Below, piece after piece: positions 311 to 8,584 of a stretch of DNA of 10,179 nt. Origin of the DNA: Candidatus Adiutrix sp. (GTDB lineage Bacteria; Desulfobacterota; Desulfarculia; Adiutricales; Adiutricaceae). The stretch is from assembly GCA_031285975.1 (NCBI GenBank), contig JAITVE010000148.1:1-10179 (forward strand). The letters run 5' to 3'. The translations under genes were made by a program, and so were the position numbers. Position 1 is the first letter of the stretch. Each line of letters begins with the position of its first letter. The notes under the pieces are model-generated. The model ran no database searches. It was given only the letters and a program-made list of their open reading frames with translations, and was not told the DNA's origin.

Positions 311-751
311 TCAGCTCTTCGTGCGATAAACGGCCGCCAGCCGCCGCAGCCAGGATTCGCCCAGGGTGACCCAGCGCACCTGCATGATAACGTCCGCCGA
401 GTGGAGCATCAGCTCCGGCCCGACAGGCGGACGCTCGGCCAGCAAGGCCAAATGCTGCGGCTCGCGCCGAATGGCGAACACCAGCACATCGCCTGGCTGC
501 CGTTGCTCCGCAGTCACTTTATGAAACAGGCCGCAGCGGTCGATGTGTTCCAGCAAAGAAATTCCCAACGAATTTTTGCCGTAACCGCTTGGCGCGGGCG
601 GGTTAAAACCCTGGCGGCGCAGGGCGGCGATGAGGAGTCCCGCGCAGTCCAGCCCGTTTTCGTCACGCCCCTGATGATGATATGGCGTGCCGACAAAACT
701 TTTCACATCGTCGATAAAGCGTTGCCTGTCAATGTGTTTTGGCTCAGCCAT
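311..751 (-). CDS. NlpC/P60 cell-wall peptidase of the tail
   Basis: 146-residue NlpC/P60 cysteine peptidase, equivalent to the GTA peptidase and the C-terminal part of lambda gpK. It probably cuts peptide stems of peptidoglycan so the tail can reach the inner membrane. Visible: N-terminal helix 'DRQRFIDDVKSFVGTPYHHQ' with the GtPy..qG entry motif; nucleophile Cys36 in 'GLDCAGLLI'; 'QPGDVLVF' (85-92), the standard strand before the active site; catalytic His100 in 'PQHLALL'; and H117 in 'LMLHSAD' as a candidate third polar residue. The end 'VTLGESWLRRLAAVYR' is typical of the phage branch. There is no signal peptide, as expected for a particle component. GGGAG lies 9 bases before the ATG. It overlaps the hub gene and is followed 31 bases later by the tail-tip gene. 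Confidence 0.9.
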   Translation of the reverse strand: MAEPKHIDRQRFIDDVKSFVGTPYHHQGRDENGLDCAGLLIAALRRQGFNPPAPSGYGKNSLGISLLEHIDRCGLFHKVTAEQRQPGDVLVFAIRREPQHLALLAERPPVGPELMLHSADVIMQVRWVTLGESWLRRLAAVYRTKS

Positions 752-1592
752 TGGCGCTGACTCCCGGCGCCAGCATCACGTCCTGGCCTGGCAAGTCCGG
801 CTCGCCGTTGAAGTTGACCAGATTGCCAAAAGCGTCGCGGCAGGCGCTGCGGCTGCGGTCGCAGCCCGGGGCCAGGCACACCGCGTCGCCCACCGCCGGG
901 GTGACGGTCAGCGGCACGTAGAGTGTTATCGCCGACCCGGAGCCGTGGCGTATTTCGCTGGCCAGCCCAGCCGCCGCGCCGCCCGCGACCTGGAGTTCGC
1001 CGCCCTGATAGAGATGTCCCTGCCCGCTGAGGGCGTTGATTTCAAAGGTTCGTGCGTCCACAATCGCTGTGATGGTTCCGTAGACACGGTAAGGCTCCAG
1101 AGTAACCCGGCAATTTTCGTCGCCGAGGCGGTTGCGGCAGGTGGGGCTGGTGCGCACGCCGATGTTGTGGCTAAAGGCGTGGGTGAGGCTGTTGACCTGA
1201 ATTGTATATTGTCCAGAGTCCACTTCCACCTCGCCGAAGCGGCCCCGCAGGAGGGGAATGACCGGCAAATCCGGGCGGCCGATGAAAGACAAAAAGACTT
1301 CGAGGTCGGCATAGTCGAAAAGCCCGGCCAATAAGTCCTGGCGCGAAAAGGAGTCCGCGCCTAAAATGCCGCGCAGTTCCGTGCTGTCCGCGCCGAGCCC
1401 GGCGTTGAGGCGGACGGCGCTGCGCTCGGCGCTGCCGTTGGGATAATAGGCCTGGCCGCCGATGATGGACGGTTCGTCCAAATCGACAAAGCGCAGGGCC
1501 AGGCCGTCCCGCCGGGTGACCACGGTGTGGGTGCCCATCACGATTAACGTGTCGTCCAAAGCTTCCAGCATGGCCGGAGAAAAGTCCCGCAT
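744..1592 (-). CDS. Baseplate hub protein (DUF2163, BR0599-like C-terminus)
   Basis: 282-residue tail hub protein of the DUF2163 family, equivalent to the GTA hub and functionally comparable to lambda gpL. It forms the trimeric platform between the distal tail ring and the tail tip. Seen in order: N-terminal DUF2163 features 'ALRFVDLDEPSIIGGQAYYP'; 'LGADSTELRGIL' (the usual g...dn.E..g.l); 'DLLAGLFDYADLEVFL' (dl.aG.yD.A.v...); and 'RGRFGEVEVDSGQYTIQVNS'. The C-terminal part has 'SPTCRNRLGDENC' (C152, C161), C239, 'GCDRSRSACRDAFGN' (C244, C251) and 'NFNGEPDLPG', the hallmark of this family. The conserved cysteines probably hold an iron-sulfur cluster, as described for gpL and the GTA hub. The ATG at 1592 has GGGGAGG 8 bases upstream; a TTG at 1598 is too close. 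Its end overlaps the peptidase gene by 8 bases. Confidence 0.9.
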   Translation of the reverse strand: MRDFSPAMLEALDDTLIVMGTHTVVTRRDGLALRFVDLDEPSIIGGQAYYPNGSAERSAVRLNAGLGADSTELRGILGADSFSRQDLLAGLFDYADLEVFLSFIGRPDLPVIPLLRGRFGEVEVDSGQYTIQVNSLTHAFSHNIGVRTSPTCRNRLGDENCRVTLEPYRVYGTITAIVDARTFEINALSGQGHLYQGGELQVAGGAAAGLASEIRHGSGSAITLYVPLTVTPAVGDAVCLAPGCDRSRSACRDAFGNLVNFNGEPDLPGQDVMLAPGVSANG

Positions 1593-1611
1593 TTGCAATA
1601 CCTCCCCGCGT

Positions 1612-4600
1612 TCAGCGGCGCACTTCGATGAGCTTGACGCTGCCGGGGCTCAGGTAGGGCCCGTCGCCCCAGCTTTCGATTTCAGCCGGGAAATAGTCCA
1701 TGTCAAAGCGCACCGGCACGTCAAATTCACCGGCCACCCGCACTTCCACCCCGGCGGCCGGGGCCTGGCTCAAGCTGACCAGGCCGGTGTGGTAATTGAC
1801 GGTGAAGCCGCCGCCCTGCCGAACGCCGCCGAGAAAAACCTCAAAACTCCCGGCCACCGGCTTCGTGACGCGGCGCAGCAGCGATTCCGCGCCCACGGCA
1901 TAGGCTTTGACGCACTGAAAGGTGCGGCTTTCCCCGTCGCCGAGGCCGATGAGCACGTTGTCGAGGCGGTAATCGGCCCAGTCTTTGAAGCGGAAACTCC
2001 GGGCCTTGCCCCGCGCCACCATGAAGAGGTCGCGCACGGCCTCATACTGCGCCCGCGTTTGAATTTTAAGGCTTATGTCATATTCGTACAGCGGCATCAG
2101 GCGCGTGGAGGCGCGGTACTCGTCGCCGCTTTTGGTGGCCACCACCGTGGTGTCGAACTTCGGCCCGCCGCCGGAGCCGAAGGAAATCGGCTCAGGAAAC
2201 CGCACATCAATAAAACTCATATCTTCATCCCTTCCAATTTGCTTGTGCGCGGGGAAAAATTCCTCCACGTCGCCGTCGTCGAGTTTCCATAAGCCGAGGC
2301 CGCCGAAACCGTTGTCAGCGGCCTCTTTCTGGCTGCGGTCAACGGTGAGGGGCGTGCCGAACCAGCAGGTTTTATCCTGATTCGTCCACGTTCCCTCAGT
2401 GCTTTCCACGCTGATGGACGCGCCGTAGAGCAGGGCCTCGCCGATGGCTTCGTGATAGCTCACATAGTCGGCGCCGTCTTCGGCCCCTGGGCGCCAATAG
2501 TGCCCGAAAGCCCGGCAGCCGCAGAGTATTCTGGGCCAAAACATTTCCGGCACCACCCGCCGGACGTAGGCATACGCCGCCTGCCAGAACCAGTCCGGCG
2601 CGGCCGGGCCTGGGGCGGAGTGCGGCCCGGTTTCGGTATAGCTCATGACTTTCACCGCGTCGCAGACCGCCGCCACCTCGGCCAAATCGCACCAGCCCAT
2701 CCACCACTCCGCATCGTAGTCGGTGCCGGTGATGGCCGGGACAGTGGCGTGCAGCAGAAAACCGTTGTCGTGGAAGGCCCGCGCGGCGGATCGGTAAAAA
2801 ACGGTGGCCGCCGCCCGGTGCTCCGGGCCGACTTCCTCGATGTTGCAGGTAATGCCGTCCCAACCTTTTGCCCGGCAGATATCAAGCATCTGTGGAATGT
2901 AGATATCCGGGTTTTGAAAAACATGGGCGCCGATTTCCGCCGAGGGTTCGCCGGTGCCCGCATTGTTGTTCAAAATCAGCAAACACTTGACGCCGCAGGC
3001 TTGCAGACGGGCCTTGTCGTCCGGGTAGATGTCCCAGCGGGCTTCGCTTTCATTCCAATAGCTGCCGCCGTCGTTGGTCGGGTGCGGCTTAATTTTTCCT
3101 AACCCGTCGAAGTACCAGGCATCGAAAGCCACATAATCAAGCACCTGCGGGCGATGGCGGATGGTGGCGCAGCCAGCCTCGTCGGCCTCCAAGGAGACCT
3201 GCCACTCCACTCCGCGATGCTTCACATCGTTCCACAACAGGCCGCTGTAGGCCAGCAAGTTGTTGTGGCTGGCGGCCGGGGGCTGATCGCCGTAAGCCAG
3301 CCAGCGGCCCAGGCACCAATCGGAAAAGCGCAACGGCGGCTCCCGGAATTCATCGCTCCCGGCATTGCGGAAAGCCTGGATGGTGTAACCGCCTTCCAGA
3401 CCCGCCTCTTCAAAAACTTCGCGGAGGACGGGGTGGATATCCTTTGATCCGTAAGGCTTTGTGGCGTAATAGTTTTCCTCTGCCCGGTAGGCCCCGAAGG
3501 GATAGACAATTTGCCGCACGGGCGGGGCTGGCGCTCCGGCTGTGCGTGAGAGGCCCAGCACGGCTTCCACCGGCCAGCGGCAGCATTGCTCCGCGCCCAC
3601 GGTGGGGCCGGGATTGACGGGGTAGACGCGAAGTTCCGCCGTCTCCCCGGCATTGATGGTAAAGGGTTCCACGTCCACGGCCAGGCCTCGGGTCAGCGTC
3701 CAAATGGGGCCGTCGCCGATTATCCGCCAGGCATTGTGGGCCGCGTCAAAAATTGAAAAGCGGAAAACAGCCGGATAACTGCGGTTCACGGCGTCGCTGC
3801 CCCAACGATAGATGAAGGGATCGGCCTCGCCGCCGGTAAAGAATTCCGGCGGTTTCAGCCACAGCTTGAGGCAGTCAATCGTCAGGGTTTCTTTGGCGGA
3901 TAAGGTGACACTGCCGCCGACCAGCGAGGGGTTATGCCAGCCCACCGGCAAAAAATCCTGCACCCAATGCACCCGCTGATTAGCGGGATACCATTCCGCC
4001 CAGTCGTCATCCCGCACTTCCCGCCAGGGGGCTTCCCACAATTTGGTTTCCGCCCACTCGCAGGTGAGGTACGTATTCACGCTGTCGTTAAAGGCCCGGC
4101 AGTCCGCGCGCACATAGTCGGCATATTCGGCGTCGGTGGCCGGGCGGCCATCGCCGAAGCCAAGAATAATGGCGGGCGTTACCGGCCAACGGTCTCCGGC
4201 GGGATAGTCGATGTATTGCCAAAACCGTTCGGACTCCTGGCTGCCCGCCGGGTAGAGTCCCCGGCAGTTGGTGACCGCCCGGAAATGCTCCTCGTCGCCG
4301 CTTAAAAGCGCGTAAATAATTCCGGCCCCAGGCCCGGCACTGAGCGTGGCAAATTCCAGGGTCACCGGCTGTCCGGTGTTGATTTGAAAGGCCTGGTCGA
4401 GGGCAATGGATAAAAACTCTCGCTCTGGCCACTGGCTTCTGGTTTCGTAATCTTGGGGCTGGATGACTCCATCCCAAACCAACAGGCCGTCGGCCCGGAT
4501 TTGCACCTGCGCGTCATAGCCCGCCCCGCTGGGCGCGGAGAGGCTCATCCACAGCCGCAAAATTTTCACCAGGCCCGTGCGGCGCGGGGTCACAAACAGG

Positions 4601-5274
4601 CTGGTGACAATGGGCGTGCGGCCGTCATAGGGGTCGGAGCCGAAGAGCGGCAGCCCGGCGCTGGCGCGGTCAACGTGGGAAAAGTCCCAATACCAACGGG
4701 TATCGCCATCGGCGATGTAGAGCGGGTCGCCATCGTCAATCCAGCAGGGGCCTTCCAGGATGGGCGCGGCTGTGCCGCCATGGTTCCAATACACCCCGCC
4801 GTCGCCGTGCCCCGGCTGGTTATCGCGCGTTTCGGGGAAGAGGGTCAGGCTGTGAAAATTGTAGGTGTGGCTGCAAATTTCCACCAACCCGCTCCGCACC
4901 CATTCATGCAGTTTTGACCAGCGCAGGTAACCGCCCTCGGGGTCAAATTTCCCCTGCCGCCGCGCGATAACCGCTATGCCGCAAGGAATACCGCGCCCGA
5001 TAAGCCAAGGAACCACGTATTCCAGGCTGTCCAAGCCGTCGTCGTGCTGAATCATGGCCACCGACTGCGCGAACGAAATTTCGCCCCGCCGCCAAGCCAG
5101 ATATTCGCCGGGCAGGACAAATGTATACCCGGCCCGGAGCAGTTTTTCAACGTGCCCCTGAAGATCGGCCACCTGCTCCCGGAAAGTCATGACTTCGCCG
5201 CGAGAGCCCACAAAGCCATGATAGCAAAGGACTGTAGCGTAGGGACGGCGTTTGCTGAAACGATCCAGCGGCAT
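1612..5274 (-). CDS. Distal tail protein fused to a PgaB-like deacetylase and GH18-like glycosidase
   Basis: 1220-residue fusion. (1) About 12-145: NodB/CE4 deacetylase start, with 'ATVLCYHGF' (13-21), 'IQHDDG' (D78, D79; base and metal ligand) and 'CSHTYNFH' (H136, H141). The H-x4-H spacing and SHTY are typical of PgaB/IcaB. (2) About 146-585: Trp-rich, probably beta-sandwich insertion. (3) About 585-660: 'RQIVYPFGAY' (587-596), like the PgaB/IcaB YPYG.Y motif 3. (4) About 705-1008: GH18-like TIM barrel with 'GWDGITCNIEEV' (804-815; putative acid E813), 'DAVKVMSYTE' and 'GLGLWKLDDGD'. (5) 1019-1220: DUF2460 distal tail protein, as in the Rhodobacter GTA, with 'FIDVRFPEPISFGSGGGP' (1021-1038), 'LGDGESRTFQCVK' and 'FDVPVRFDMD'. 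GGGAG lies 5 bases before the ATG. No signal peptide. DUF2460 would anchor the enzymes at the tail tip. Substrate unknown; surface N-acetylated polysaccharide is an inference. Confidence 0.85.
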   Translation of the reverse strand: MPLDRFSKRRPYATVLCYHGFVGSRGEVMTFREQVADLQGHVEKLLRAGYTFVLPGEYLAWRRGEISFAQSVAMIQHDDGLDSLEYVVPWLIGRGIPCGIAVIARRQGKFDPEGGYLRWSKLHEWVRSGLVEICSHTYNFHSLTLFPETRDNQPGHGDGGVYWNHGGTAAPILEGPCWIDDGDPLYIADGDTRWYWDFSHVDRASAGLPLFGSDPYDGRTPIVTSLFVTPRRTGLVKILRLWMSLSAPSGAGYDAQVQIRADGLLVWDGVIQPQDYETRSQWPEREFLSIALDQAFQINTGQPVTLEFATLSAGPGAGIIYALLSGDEEHFRAVTNCRGLYPAGSQESERFWQYIDYPAGDRWPVTPAIILGFGDGRPATDAEYADYVRADCRAFNDSVNTYLTCEWAETKLWEAPWREVRDDDWAEWYPANQRVHWVQDFLPVGWHNPSLVGGSVTLSAKETLTIDCLKLWLKPPEFFTGGEADPFIYRWGSDAVNRSYPAVFRFSIFDAAHNAWRIIGDGPIWTLTRGLAVDVEPFTINAGETAELRVYPVNPGPTVGAEQCCRWPVEAVLGLSRTAGAPAPPVRQIVYPFGAYRAEENYYATKPYGSKDIHPVLREVFEEAGLEGGYTIQAFRNAGSDEFREPPLRFSDWCLGRWLAYGDQPPAASHNNLLAYSGLLWNDVKHRGVEWQVSLEADEAGCATIRHRPQVLDYVAFDAWYFDGLGKIKPHPTNDGGSYWNESEARWDIYPDDKARLQACGVKCLLILNNNAGTGEPSAEIGAHVFQNPDIYIPQMLDICRAKGWDGITCNIEEVGPEHRAAATVFYRSAARAFHDNGFLLHATVPAITGTDYDAEWWMGWCDLAEVAAVCDAVKVMSYTETGPHSAPGPAAPDWFWQAAYAYVRRVVPEMFWPRILCGCRAFGHYWRPGAEDGADYVSYHEAIGEALLYGASISVESTEGTWTNQDKTCWFGTPLTVDRSQKEAADNGFGGLGLWKLDDGDVEEFFPAHKQIGRDEDMSFIDVRFPEPISFGSGGGPKFDTTVVATKSGDEYRASTRLMPLYEYDISLKIQTRAQYEAVRDLFMVARGKARSFRFKDWADYRLDNVLIGLGDGESRTFQCVKAYAVGAESLLRRVTKPVAGSFEVFLGGVRQGGGFTVNYHTGLVSLSQAPAAGVEVRVAGEFDVPVRFDMDYFPAEIESWGDGPYLSPGSVKLIEVRR
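2218..2235 (-). promoter_or_regulatory. Internal ribosome binding site and ATG for a free DUF2460 protein
   Basis: Within the fusion gene, GGAAGGG (2229-2235) stands 8 bases before an in-frame ATG at 2218-2220, exactly where the DUF2460 domain begins (MSFIDVRFP). Translation from here would give a 202-residue protein, the usual size of a stand-alone DUF2460 distal tail protein. There is no stop between the GH18-like domain and this ATG. The site may be a functional second start or a relic of two separate genes. Confidence 0.6.
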
Positions 5275-5553
5275 TCAAACTCCCATGACCCAGACGGCGG
5301 CGGTGCGGCCCGCCAGCGTTTCCGGGAATTGCAGGTTGATGTGGGTGTGCAGTTCGCCCAAGCCCGGCACCAGCTCTTTGGGCGAAGTGACAGTGACCTC
5401 GGTGGGCCCCCCATTGACGGTGACGAAGGTCAGCGGCTCGTTGACGGTAAAGCGTCCGCCGGGAAAATCCAGCCGGATGACCTCGCCGGAAGTGACGGCC
5501 ACCCGCACGGCCAATGGCCGCTGATAGGGGGCCCAAGGGATTTGTTCAGGCAT
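5275..5553 (-). CDS. Unrecognised 92-residue tail protein
   Basis: Small protein between the tape measure and the distal-tail fusion; I do not recognise a family. The start at 5553 is chosen because CGGAG lies 4 bases upstream and the sequence beyond it in the same frame is a proline/arginine-rich shadow of the tape measure. The sequence is mostly alternating hydrophobic (VRVAVTSGEVIRLDF, FVTVNGGPTEVTVTSP, HTHINLQFPETLAG), suggesting an all-beta fold, with no cysteine and no membrane segment or signal peptide. Its TGA is immediately followed by the ATG of the fusion gene with no gap, so translation is probably coupled. By position it could be a tube-tip or adaptor subunit of the distal tail, or a binding partner of the carbohydrate-active protein. 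That is inference from place only. Confidence 0.7.
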   Translation of the reverse strand: MPEQIPWAPYQRPLAVRVAVTSGEVIRLDFPGGRFTVNEPLTFVTVNGGPTEVTVTSPKELVPGLGELHTHINLQFPETLAGRTAAVWVMGV

Positions 5554-7663: not shown

Positions 7664-8584
7664 TCAGGCGAAAGCGTCGATGCGGAGGTTGGTTTCCGCC
7701 GCCTGGTCGTACAAAGCCTGGAAGGGCATGGACAGCATGACCGGCCCTTCACTGTCCACCGGGTTGTCGCCGCCGGAATATTTGATGCGCGGCAGCGTGA
7801 AGGTATAGGACTGATGCTGCCCGTCGCCAAGGGTGAATTGCAGGCTGGATTCCGTTTCGTTCACGAATTTATTCAGCAATTCCATGCCCGAAAAATAGGC
7901 CGACAAGGTGCCGGTGACGTTGATGCGGCCCGGCGTAAGCGAGGCCGCCGAATCGCTGCCGAGAACGAAGGCGGGCTCGATAGCGTTGTCAATCATCAGT
8001 TCCAGCGAGGTGACCACGGCGACTTCCGAACCGCCTTCCCTGATGCGCCCGGCAAAACCGTCAAAGGGCGGCGCGGCCTGGCCGGGGGCGCACTCGGCGC
8101 AGAGCGGCGCGTCGGTGAAATTGATGGCGCGGCCCACCAGGGTCATGGTTCCCGTGACCATCGCGTTGGTGGCAATGGTCAAACTCAGGGACGAGACCTC
8201 GCAGCCGGTGAAATTTTCATAGCGGCCAATGTCGCCAAAGGCCCGTTCGATAGTGAAGGAACTCATGGTTGTCCCGGCGGTCAGGCACCGGGCCGCGCCG
8301 TCAGCGATCCATTCAGAGCGCAGGGCGGCGGCCAGAAAATCATCGTACTCGCCGTAGCTGAATTCCAGGCCTATCTCGCCCCCGGCCCGGCGCTGGCCGT
8401 GGCGCAGGTCGCTGATTTGCGCGTCGGCGCGAAGTTCTTGTGACTGAAAGGAATCCTTGGTCAGCACCAGGGAATTACTGGTGTGGCGCAGGGTTTTCAG
8501 CTGCGGCGCGTCCGGGGTTTGACCGAAAACGCTTTCCTTAATGTAGCGGGTGCCGTGAAAGGCCCCGGCGGCAAAAATGCTCAT
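7664..8584 (-). CDS. Major tail tube protein (Phage_tube_2-like)
   Basis: 306-residue tail tube subunit, which polymerises as stacked rings around the tape measure to form the DNA channel. Family-typical features in order are: 'YIKESVFGQTPDAPQLKTLR' (14-33, ..EstfGttP..p....lr.ts); 'SQELRADAQISDLRHGQRRA' (48-67), the usual SnEirsDrq..dlrhG.rr.gG; 'FSYGEYDDFLAAAL' (75-88); 'SSFTIERAFGDIGRYENFTG' (108-127); 'SLSLTIATNAMVTGTMTLVG' (132-151); and a second beta unit around 'INVTGTLSAYF' (221-231) with 'FVNETESSLQFTLGDG' (240-255). Length is normal for the family. The start has a GAGGTG ribosome site 4 bases upstream. A low-complexity insertion, 'LCAECAPGQAAPPFDG' (161-176), carries two cysteines. 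It is followed 14 bases later by the tail chaperone gene, the standard order. Confidence 0.9.
   Translation of the reverse strand: MSIFAAGAFHGTRYIKESVFGQTPDAPQLKTLRHTSNSLVLTKDSFQSQELRADAQISDLRHGQRRAGGEIGLEFSYGEYDDFLAAALRSEWIADGAARCLTAGTTMSSFTIERAFGDIGRYENFTGCEVSSLSLTIATNAMVTGTMTLVGRAINFTDAPLCAECAPGQAAPPFDGFAGRIREGGSEVAVVTSLELMIDNAIEPAFVLGSDSAASLTPGRINVTGTLSAYFSGMELLNKFVNETESSLQFTLGDGQHQSYTFTLPRIKYSGGDNPVDSEGPVMLSMPFQALYDQAAETNLRIDAFA

Follow-up and report, generated by a model that had tools for sequence, protein, structure and literature searches.

We describe a gene within a window of 10,179 nucleotides from Candidatus Adiutrix sp. (contig JAITVE010000148.1), the minus strand of which is a tail gene cluster. 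The gene encodes a single chain of 1220 residues in which a PgaB-type CE4 deacetylase and a GH18-fold barrel precede an entire DUF2460 distal tail protein (DTP). The original prediction had described CE4/NodB motifs, a GH18-like barrel and a full DUF2460 domain in one open frame, and domain matches, fold comparison and residue conservation confirmed all three. What goes beyond it is that the DUF2460 part keeps a start codon of its own at residue 1019, accompanied by a Shine-Dalgarno (SD)-like GGA-AGG and by a dip in GC content and in folding, and that these initiation signals are not random. We infer from them that internal initiation would yield two products from one gene, an enzyme-armed and a bare DTP. 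On the whole, it appears probable that the DTP of a siphophage-like or gene transfer agent (GTA)-like particle, with a tail of the type of RcGTA and roseophage R4C, is made in two forms from one frame.

Domain architecture of the fusion protein

The DUF2460 domain was matched over its full length and above the Pfam cut-off (E 1.8e-54, 184.7 bits against 30.4), TIGR02217 was matched at 149.2 against a cut-off of 136.65, and residues 1019-1206 and 1019-1219 align with the DTPs of RcGTA and R4C (6tba, 8gtc). The assignment of the DTP fold rests on sequence, and the matches of a second structure model spanned the barrel only. A viral structure library returned GH18 and tail proteins at low coverage among the 50 matches shown, none of them over the whole protein. 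Among 5.8 billion proteins searched, 156 relatives were found at E ≤ 0.001, and 120 of them were listed; among these, 52 proteins including the query are full fusions, and every one of them is a single uninterrupted protein. A chance open reading frame (ORF) or an assembly join was also considered and is ruled out by the 51 other fused proteins among the listed relatives.

The deacetylase shares with PgaB and IcaB (CE4) the fold, the catalytic Asp-Asp pair, the H-x4-H spacing, the P-[YF]-G motif and the order of a deacetylase followed by a TIM barrel, whereas it differs from them in an insert of about 400 residues between motifs 2 and 3 and in the GH18-like character of the barrel. Comparison of the structure model recovered both the PgaB-type CE4 fold and the GH18 fold; the PgaB-type match spans model residues 8 to 678, in a match list that consists mostly of GH18 chains and in which other deacetylases were hardly compared. 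D78, D79, H136 and H141 are invariant in all 66 aligned proteins, as are P592 and G594, and the spacing H136-x4-H141 is that of H184-x4-H189 in E. coli PgaB. In profile searches, the solved polysaccharide deacetylase 4wcj was matched (E 4.5e-7), and PgaB chains weakly. The window protein stays below the cut-offs of PF01522 (17.0 against 23.1) and of TIGR03938, the PgaB model (30.3 against 321.9); its relative P0029 passes the former (25.8 against 23.1).

Residues 1-700 could be aligned with PgaB at the profile level only when the insert columns were skipped (probability 95.4, E 6e-9), and not with the insert included. The distance from H141 to P592 varies between 401 and 692 residues among the 52 fused proteins, and in three of these (P0023, P0029 and P0035) the insert harbours a GDSL/SGNH esterase as the third enzyme fold. 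The deacetylase with its insert also occurs without a match to the barrel or the DTP, namely in L004-L006 from Peptococcaceae and Gracilibacter bins and in P0059-P0066 (about 690 residues).

The barrel has a TIM-barrel fold and passes the Pfam cut-off of GH18. Glu813 is kept in 59 of the 59 aligned proteins that have a residue at this position and Tyr879 in 58 of 58. Against our reading stands the departure from the GH18 motif DxxDxDxE, which sets the fusion apart from the GH18 chitinases, SleL and YdhD: the corresponding segment is DGITCNIE, with Asn (Asn811) in the place of the middle Asp in 54 of the 59 proteins, and the Asp that is replaced matters in GH18. With this substitution, the chemistry of the barrel may differ from that of GH18. 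The barrel could even be a glycan-binding, lectin-like module, which would leave the CE4 part as the only catalytic one and make the protein a deacetylating adhesin. The Asn is in line with this, as is the presence of YKL-39, CHI3L1 and Ym1 among the fold matches, chitinase-like proteins that we take to be non-catalytic. However, the Glu, which is usually lost in lectin-type chitinase-like proteins, is retained here together with Tyr879, and GH85 enzymes use an Asn-x-Glu pair; we regard a purely binding barrel as rather unlikely. With regard to an assignment of the barrel to the C-terminal domain of PgaB (GH153), hhalign gave no alignment of residues 690-1018 with the one template used, E. coli PgaB.

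As regards the substrate, the fold and profile neighbours of the barrel include the spore cortex-lytic SleL and YdhD, and gp23 of Pseudomonas phage PMBT3, a relative of the enzyme part, is annotated as peptidoglycan hydrolase in one record, both of which would fit peptidoglycan as the target instead of a surface polysaccharide. We consider such a target improbable, since the matches of the CE4 part are to the PgaB model, 4wcj, the PgaB fold and, weakly, PgaB chains, an NlpC/P60 peptidase is already encoded in the cluster, and modules anchored to the DTP would be expected to sit outside the tail. The earlier interpretation, a tail-anchored machine that deacetylates and cleaves a surface glycan, is partly supported, with catalysis as its predicted component.

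Initiation signals at residue 1019

In 50 of the 52 fused proteins, a Met lies within a stretch of 10 alignment columns at the start of the DTP despite a variable linker, whereas the Met share of control stretches has a median of 0.08, with 0.87 and 0.77 as the two highest values. DNA was obtained from 12 fused loci including the window, ten of which were used after L014 and L007 had been dropped as near-copies of L013 and L015. The Gly-Arg pair just upstream of the Met is encoded by GGA/GGG-AGG in six of the six loci that have it, compared with one of 51 such pairs elsewhere in those ORFs. The remaining four loci have Thr-Arg with AGG (L012) or Gly without Arg (L003, L017 and L019). Of the 81 Arg codons in the window ORF, only the one in the SD-like site is AGG.

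The signals were evaluated against a null of random synonymous codons drawn from the usage of each ORF, with 145 Met codons as controls. Pairing with the anti-SD sequence is stronger than under the null (Fisher p 1e-4 over the ten loci; 4/10 loci and 2/145 controls below 0.05). The dip in GC content exceeds it as well (Fisher p 1.3e-8; 5/10 loci and 2/145 controls below 0.05; window p 0.001), and folding is weaker than expected (Fisher p 1.2e-5; 4/10 loci and 1/145 controls below 0.05; window p 0.003). L015 and L018, the two least GC-rich loci, show no GC dip, yet have strong SDs of -12.2 and -11.7 kcal/mol. The site in the window pairs at -6.0, which is inside the range of the window's own gene starts (-4.5 to -8.8). 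Ribosome-binding signals at a conserved internal start codon are found when the ten loci are pooled and not in each locus by itself.

Several observations weigh against internal initiation. Met occupies the exact column 1019 in 33 of the 52 proteins and is shifted in others, and P0033 and P0051 have no Met at the DTP start. The SD score of the window gives p 0.15 against the synonymous null, with six of the ten loci above 0.05; the same threshold is exceeded in the GC test by five loci (L003, L012, L013, L015 and L018) and in the folding test by six. Within the window ORF, SD pairing at Met859, Met877 and Met911 is equal to or above that at Met1019, and Met877 is kept in 45 of the 52 fused proteins. 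The junction does not stand out in a generic codon-conservation scan, where its best rank is 63 among 1176 windows.

The production of the full-length fusion alone also has to be weighed, with six enzyme-bearing subunits and Met1019 either a relic of the ancestral DTP or kept for structural reasons. The uninterrupted protein in all 52 listed cases and the unremarkable scan suit this explanation, free DTPs normally begin with Met (6tba and 8gtc alignments), and in each signal test at least half of the loci are individually non-significant. However, SD-like codons, low GC and weak folding in excess of amino-acid demands would be surprising in a relic, and these signals persist in loci whose best segments are 39-55% identical to the window protein. 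In addition, the N-terminus of the RcGTA DTP touches the baseplate (PMC7296036). We regard the exclusive production of the long protein as unlikely. The conserved start signals at residue 1019 suggest that a bare DTP is also made, and a ring with fewer than six enzyme modules would then be possible.

Proposed mechanism

In the two-form reading that we favour, the long form of 1220 residues would hang from the hexameric ring, with the deacetylase and its beta-rich insert at the N-terminus followed by the barrel, at the point where the tail tube meets the hub. Outside the ring, the modules would deacetylate and bind or cleave a surface polymer containing N-acetylglucosamine, such as a capsule or matrix, during the approach to the cell, and removal of the polymer would open the way to the outer membrane. 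Translation of the short form of 202 residues would begin at Met1019, served by a ribosome-binding site of its own, and the product would be an ordinary DTP with a free N-terminus. A mixed ring would accordingly hold fewer than six enzymes and offer free DTP N-termini for docking of the hub and the megatron. Synthesis of the short protein, the presence of both forms in one ring, their ratio and placement in it, the enzymatic activity and its substrate are predicted here.

The composition of the ring and baseplate has been described for RcGTA and R4C (PMC7296036, PMC10276861). The N-terminal Ala2 of the RcGTA DTP takes part in binding the hub and the megatron (PMC7296036), so that large extensions on all subunits would be difficult to accommodate. 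Six extensions of 1018 residues at this end would be hard to place, a difficulty that a ring combining long and short subunits would remove. It is also conceivable that only the short form builds the DTP ring and that the long form is located elsewhere on the tail, for example above the DTP, in an additional ring or an incomplete sheath. DTPs and tail tube proteins have a common fold (PMC7296036), and another DUF2460 fusion has domains named after a non-contractile tail sheath protein (NCTSP) together with a start codon at the DTP. The existence of a single gene in the canonical DTP position argues against such an arrangement, which we hold to be very unlikely.

A second DUF2460 fusion

This other fusion, composed of NCTSP_N, an NCTSP TIM barrel and DUF2460, was studied in the viral-contig loci L051-L130, for which the scan kept 80 of 444 relatives, nine of the 80 being unparsed. 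Its named sources are Sphingopyxis, Novosphingobium and Sphingomonadales. The proteins had been considered as a Met-less control (Met in 4/53), which was dropped when the DNA showed GTG or ATG starts; one of these codons marks the beginning of the DTP in all 71 parsed loci. Val at this position is encoded by GTG in 23 of 23 non-redundant loci, whereas the mean GTG share in the rest of these ORFs is 0.56. Most loci have a GGGGAGG-type SD that is strong, but its strength is mainly driven by the amino acids (1/30 with p<0.05). The GC test was flat (3/30 loci), and the junction was inconspicuous in the codon-conservation scan (70th of 774 windows at best). These data are suggestive of a second dual-product DTP gene, and the clusters around it may be GTA-like. 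We lean slightly towards the more general view that N-terminally extended DUF2460 DTPs are a class of dual-product genes, in which bare and armed subunits would permit sub-stoichiometric large modules and free N-termini for the three-fold hub, and which would have arisen in two fusions, CE4-GH18 and, in sphingomonad elements, NCTSP-TIM.

Distribution and inheritance of the fusion

The source names of the listed relatives include Albidiferax and Burkholderiaceae, and one Rhodocyclaceae bin carries the fusion. Some relatives lack DUF2460, PMBT3 gp23 being one. The window alone matched both in the order of Adiutrix (41 genomes, E 1e-30) and in the phylum (297 genomes, E 1e-20), and among the 399 genomes of the order of L003 the full fusion was found in L003 only, with four others matching in the DTP only. 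No DNA nearly identical to the window was found among phages, and a DNA pattern scan gave six contigs, none of them new.

The fusion is the sole DUF2460 copy in 11 of the 11 records that have this domain, several of which are fragments, and a second, separate DTP gene was accordingly rejected for these records. The other eight of the 19 searched records have no DUF2460, being free-standing, truncated at the contig end or otherwise lacking it. The 92-residue gene upstream of the fusion is present in nine of the nine fetched fused loci with upstream sequence (two near-copies) and was not found beside L022-L025, which are loci without DUF2460. Its product gave no Pfam or PHROG match, is homologous to the C-terminal end of PMBT3 gp22 and is perhaps an adaptor.

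Module distances correlate with a Mantel r of 0.91 and 0.84 within the enzyme part and of 0.59 and 0.70 between enzyme and DTP. Because of this correlation, the fusion appears to have been passed on mostly as a unit, although the lower values for the DTP than for the enzyme modules among themselves count against it. L007, from a bin called Archaeoglobales, and the viral contig L015 have the same DNA at the DTP start, with AAGGAGG ahead of the internal ATG; L007 is likely a mis-binned phage contig.

Genomic context

The cluster contains, in this order, the head closure gene Hc1, Neck1, the tail terminator, the tail tube, two chaperone-like genes, the tape measure, the 92-residue gene, the fusion, the hub, NlpC/P60 and the start of a further gene (Table 1), which we take to be the order in RcGTA and R4C. 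The last gene, only the start of which lies in the window, is in the megatron position, a label that refers to position only. The placement of the fusion between the tape measure and the hub, with the 92-residue gene between tape measure and fusion, bears out the distal-tail location of the original prediction in a cluster of RcGTA-type order. The length of the tape measure suggests a short tail. Its listed TTG start immediately precedes an ATG at which translation may truly begin. In PHROGs and in many listed phage records, the family of DUF2460 distal tail proteins (PHROG 2913) is labelled 'glycoside hydrolase'; this label on a structural domain may derive from fusions like the one described here.

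Table 1. Features on the window and their coordinates.
Feature	Coordinates	Strand	Remarks
CE4-GH18-DUF2460 fusion gene, 1220 aa, proposed long form	1612..5274	-	one uninterrupted open frame
Deacetylase part 1, residues 8-165	4780..5253	-	motif 1 QHDDG 5035-5049; motif 2 SHTYNFH 4852-4872
Insert in deacetylase, residues ~168-575, boundaries approximate	3550..4773	-	mostly beta strands (secondary structure)
Deacetylase part 2, residues ~576-687	3214..3549	-	motif 3 YPFG 3493-3504
GH18-fold barrel, residues 688-1017	2224..3213	-	catalytic-type Glu813 in DGITCNIE 2836-2859
SD-like GGAAGG (codons GGA AGG, residues 1014-1015)	2230..2235	-	9 nt ahead of internal ATG
DUF2460 domain and internal in-frame ORF, Met1019-Arg1220, 202 aa	1612..2220	-	start ATG 2218-2220
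92-aa gene without known family	5275..5553	-	directly upstream of fusion gene
Tape measure protein, 433 aa	5564..6865	-	PHROG 1538, E 3.1e-48
Baseplate hub	744..1598	-	phiJL001_Gp84_N and BR0599; TIGR02218
NlpC/P60 peptidase	311..751	-	domain match
Tail tube protein	7664..8584	-	Phage_tube_2

The window is contig C408 of a bin of 417 contigs that is about 78% complete, and the contig ends inside the tail cluster. As a host marker, RecA gave no match in the bin and RpoB was used in its place; it is 93% identical to that of Deltaproteobacteria bacterium OttesenSCG-928-M10 and 89-90% to that of Candidatus Adiutrix. A phage contig of 10 kb may possibly have been mis-binned.

Comparison with known systems

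The DTPs of RcGTA (Rcc01695) and R4C (6tba, 8gtc) are, like the fusion, DUF2460/TIGR02217 proteins followed by hub and peptidase genes, but at 210 and 214 residues they lack the enzymatic modules. In RcGTA, a similar purpose is served by TspA, a tailspike that is separate and detachable and docks onto the OB domain of the DTP (PMC13420450). The Dit of R4C has been linked to glycoside-hydrolase-family proteins by PSI-BLAST and Pfam (PMC10276861). The evoDits of lactococcal and Bacillus siphophages are described as DTPs that likewise possess additional carbohydrate-active modules aiding adsorption; these are carbohydrate-binding modules, whereas the extension of the window protein is N-terminal and has two enzyme folds.

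PMBT3 gp23 (1018 aa; L002, 9971-13027) is the same CE4-insert-GH18 module with 38% identity over 82% of the query and adjoins a homologue of the 92-residue protein, but it is not fused to a DTP. The tail of PMBT3 has a central fibre of the lambda J type, and the enzyme module therefore serves two different tail types. The annotation of gp23 varies between minor tail protein and peptidoglycan hydrolase, and the terms 'deacetylase' and 'peptidoglycan hydrolase' have no occurrence in the main text of the PMBT3 paper (PMC8421299).

A precedent for two products from one gene is given by the two-polypeptide endolysins, in which an in-frame internal start provides a C-terminal product besides the full-length one and mixed multimers form, in one case at 1:5 (PMC9430671); these are lysis enzymes, whereas the fusion is a virion ring protein. 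The tailspike deacetylase of Acinetobacter phage Aristophanes is another virion-borne polysaccharide deacetylase, although it is an Autographiviridae tailspike and the abstract mentions neither a DTP nor a GH18 barrel (PMC8471582). Among the papers listed by searches of an open-access library, none was seen to describe a CE4-GH18 DTP or a dual-product DTP.

Significance

If the proposed reading is correct, a siphophage-type or GTA-type tail would carry a PgaB-like deacetylase and a glycosidase-fold barrel covalently on its distal ring and not on tailspikes or fibres, and the gene, the catalytic residues and the start site are now named for testing. A real dual product would explain how a symmetric ring bears a bulky minority decoration, with the ratio being set by translation and not by a second gene. 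The fusions would, moreover, be a source of candidate enzymes against biofilm polymers resembling poly-N-acetylglucosamine.

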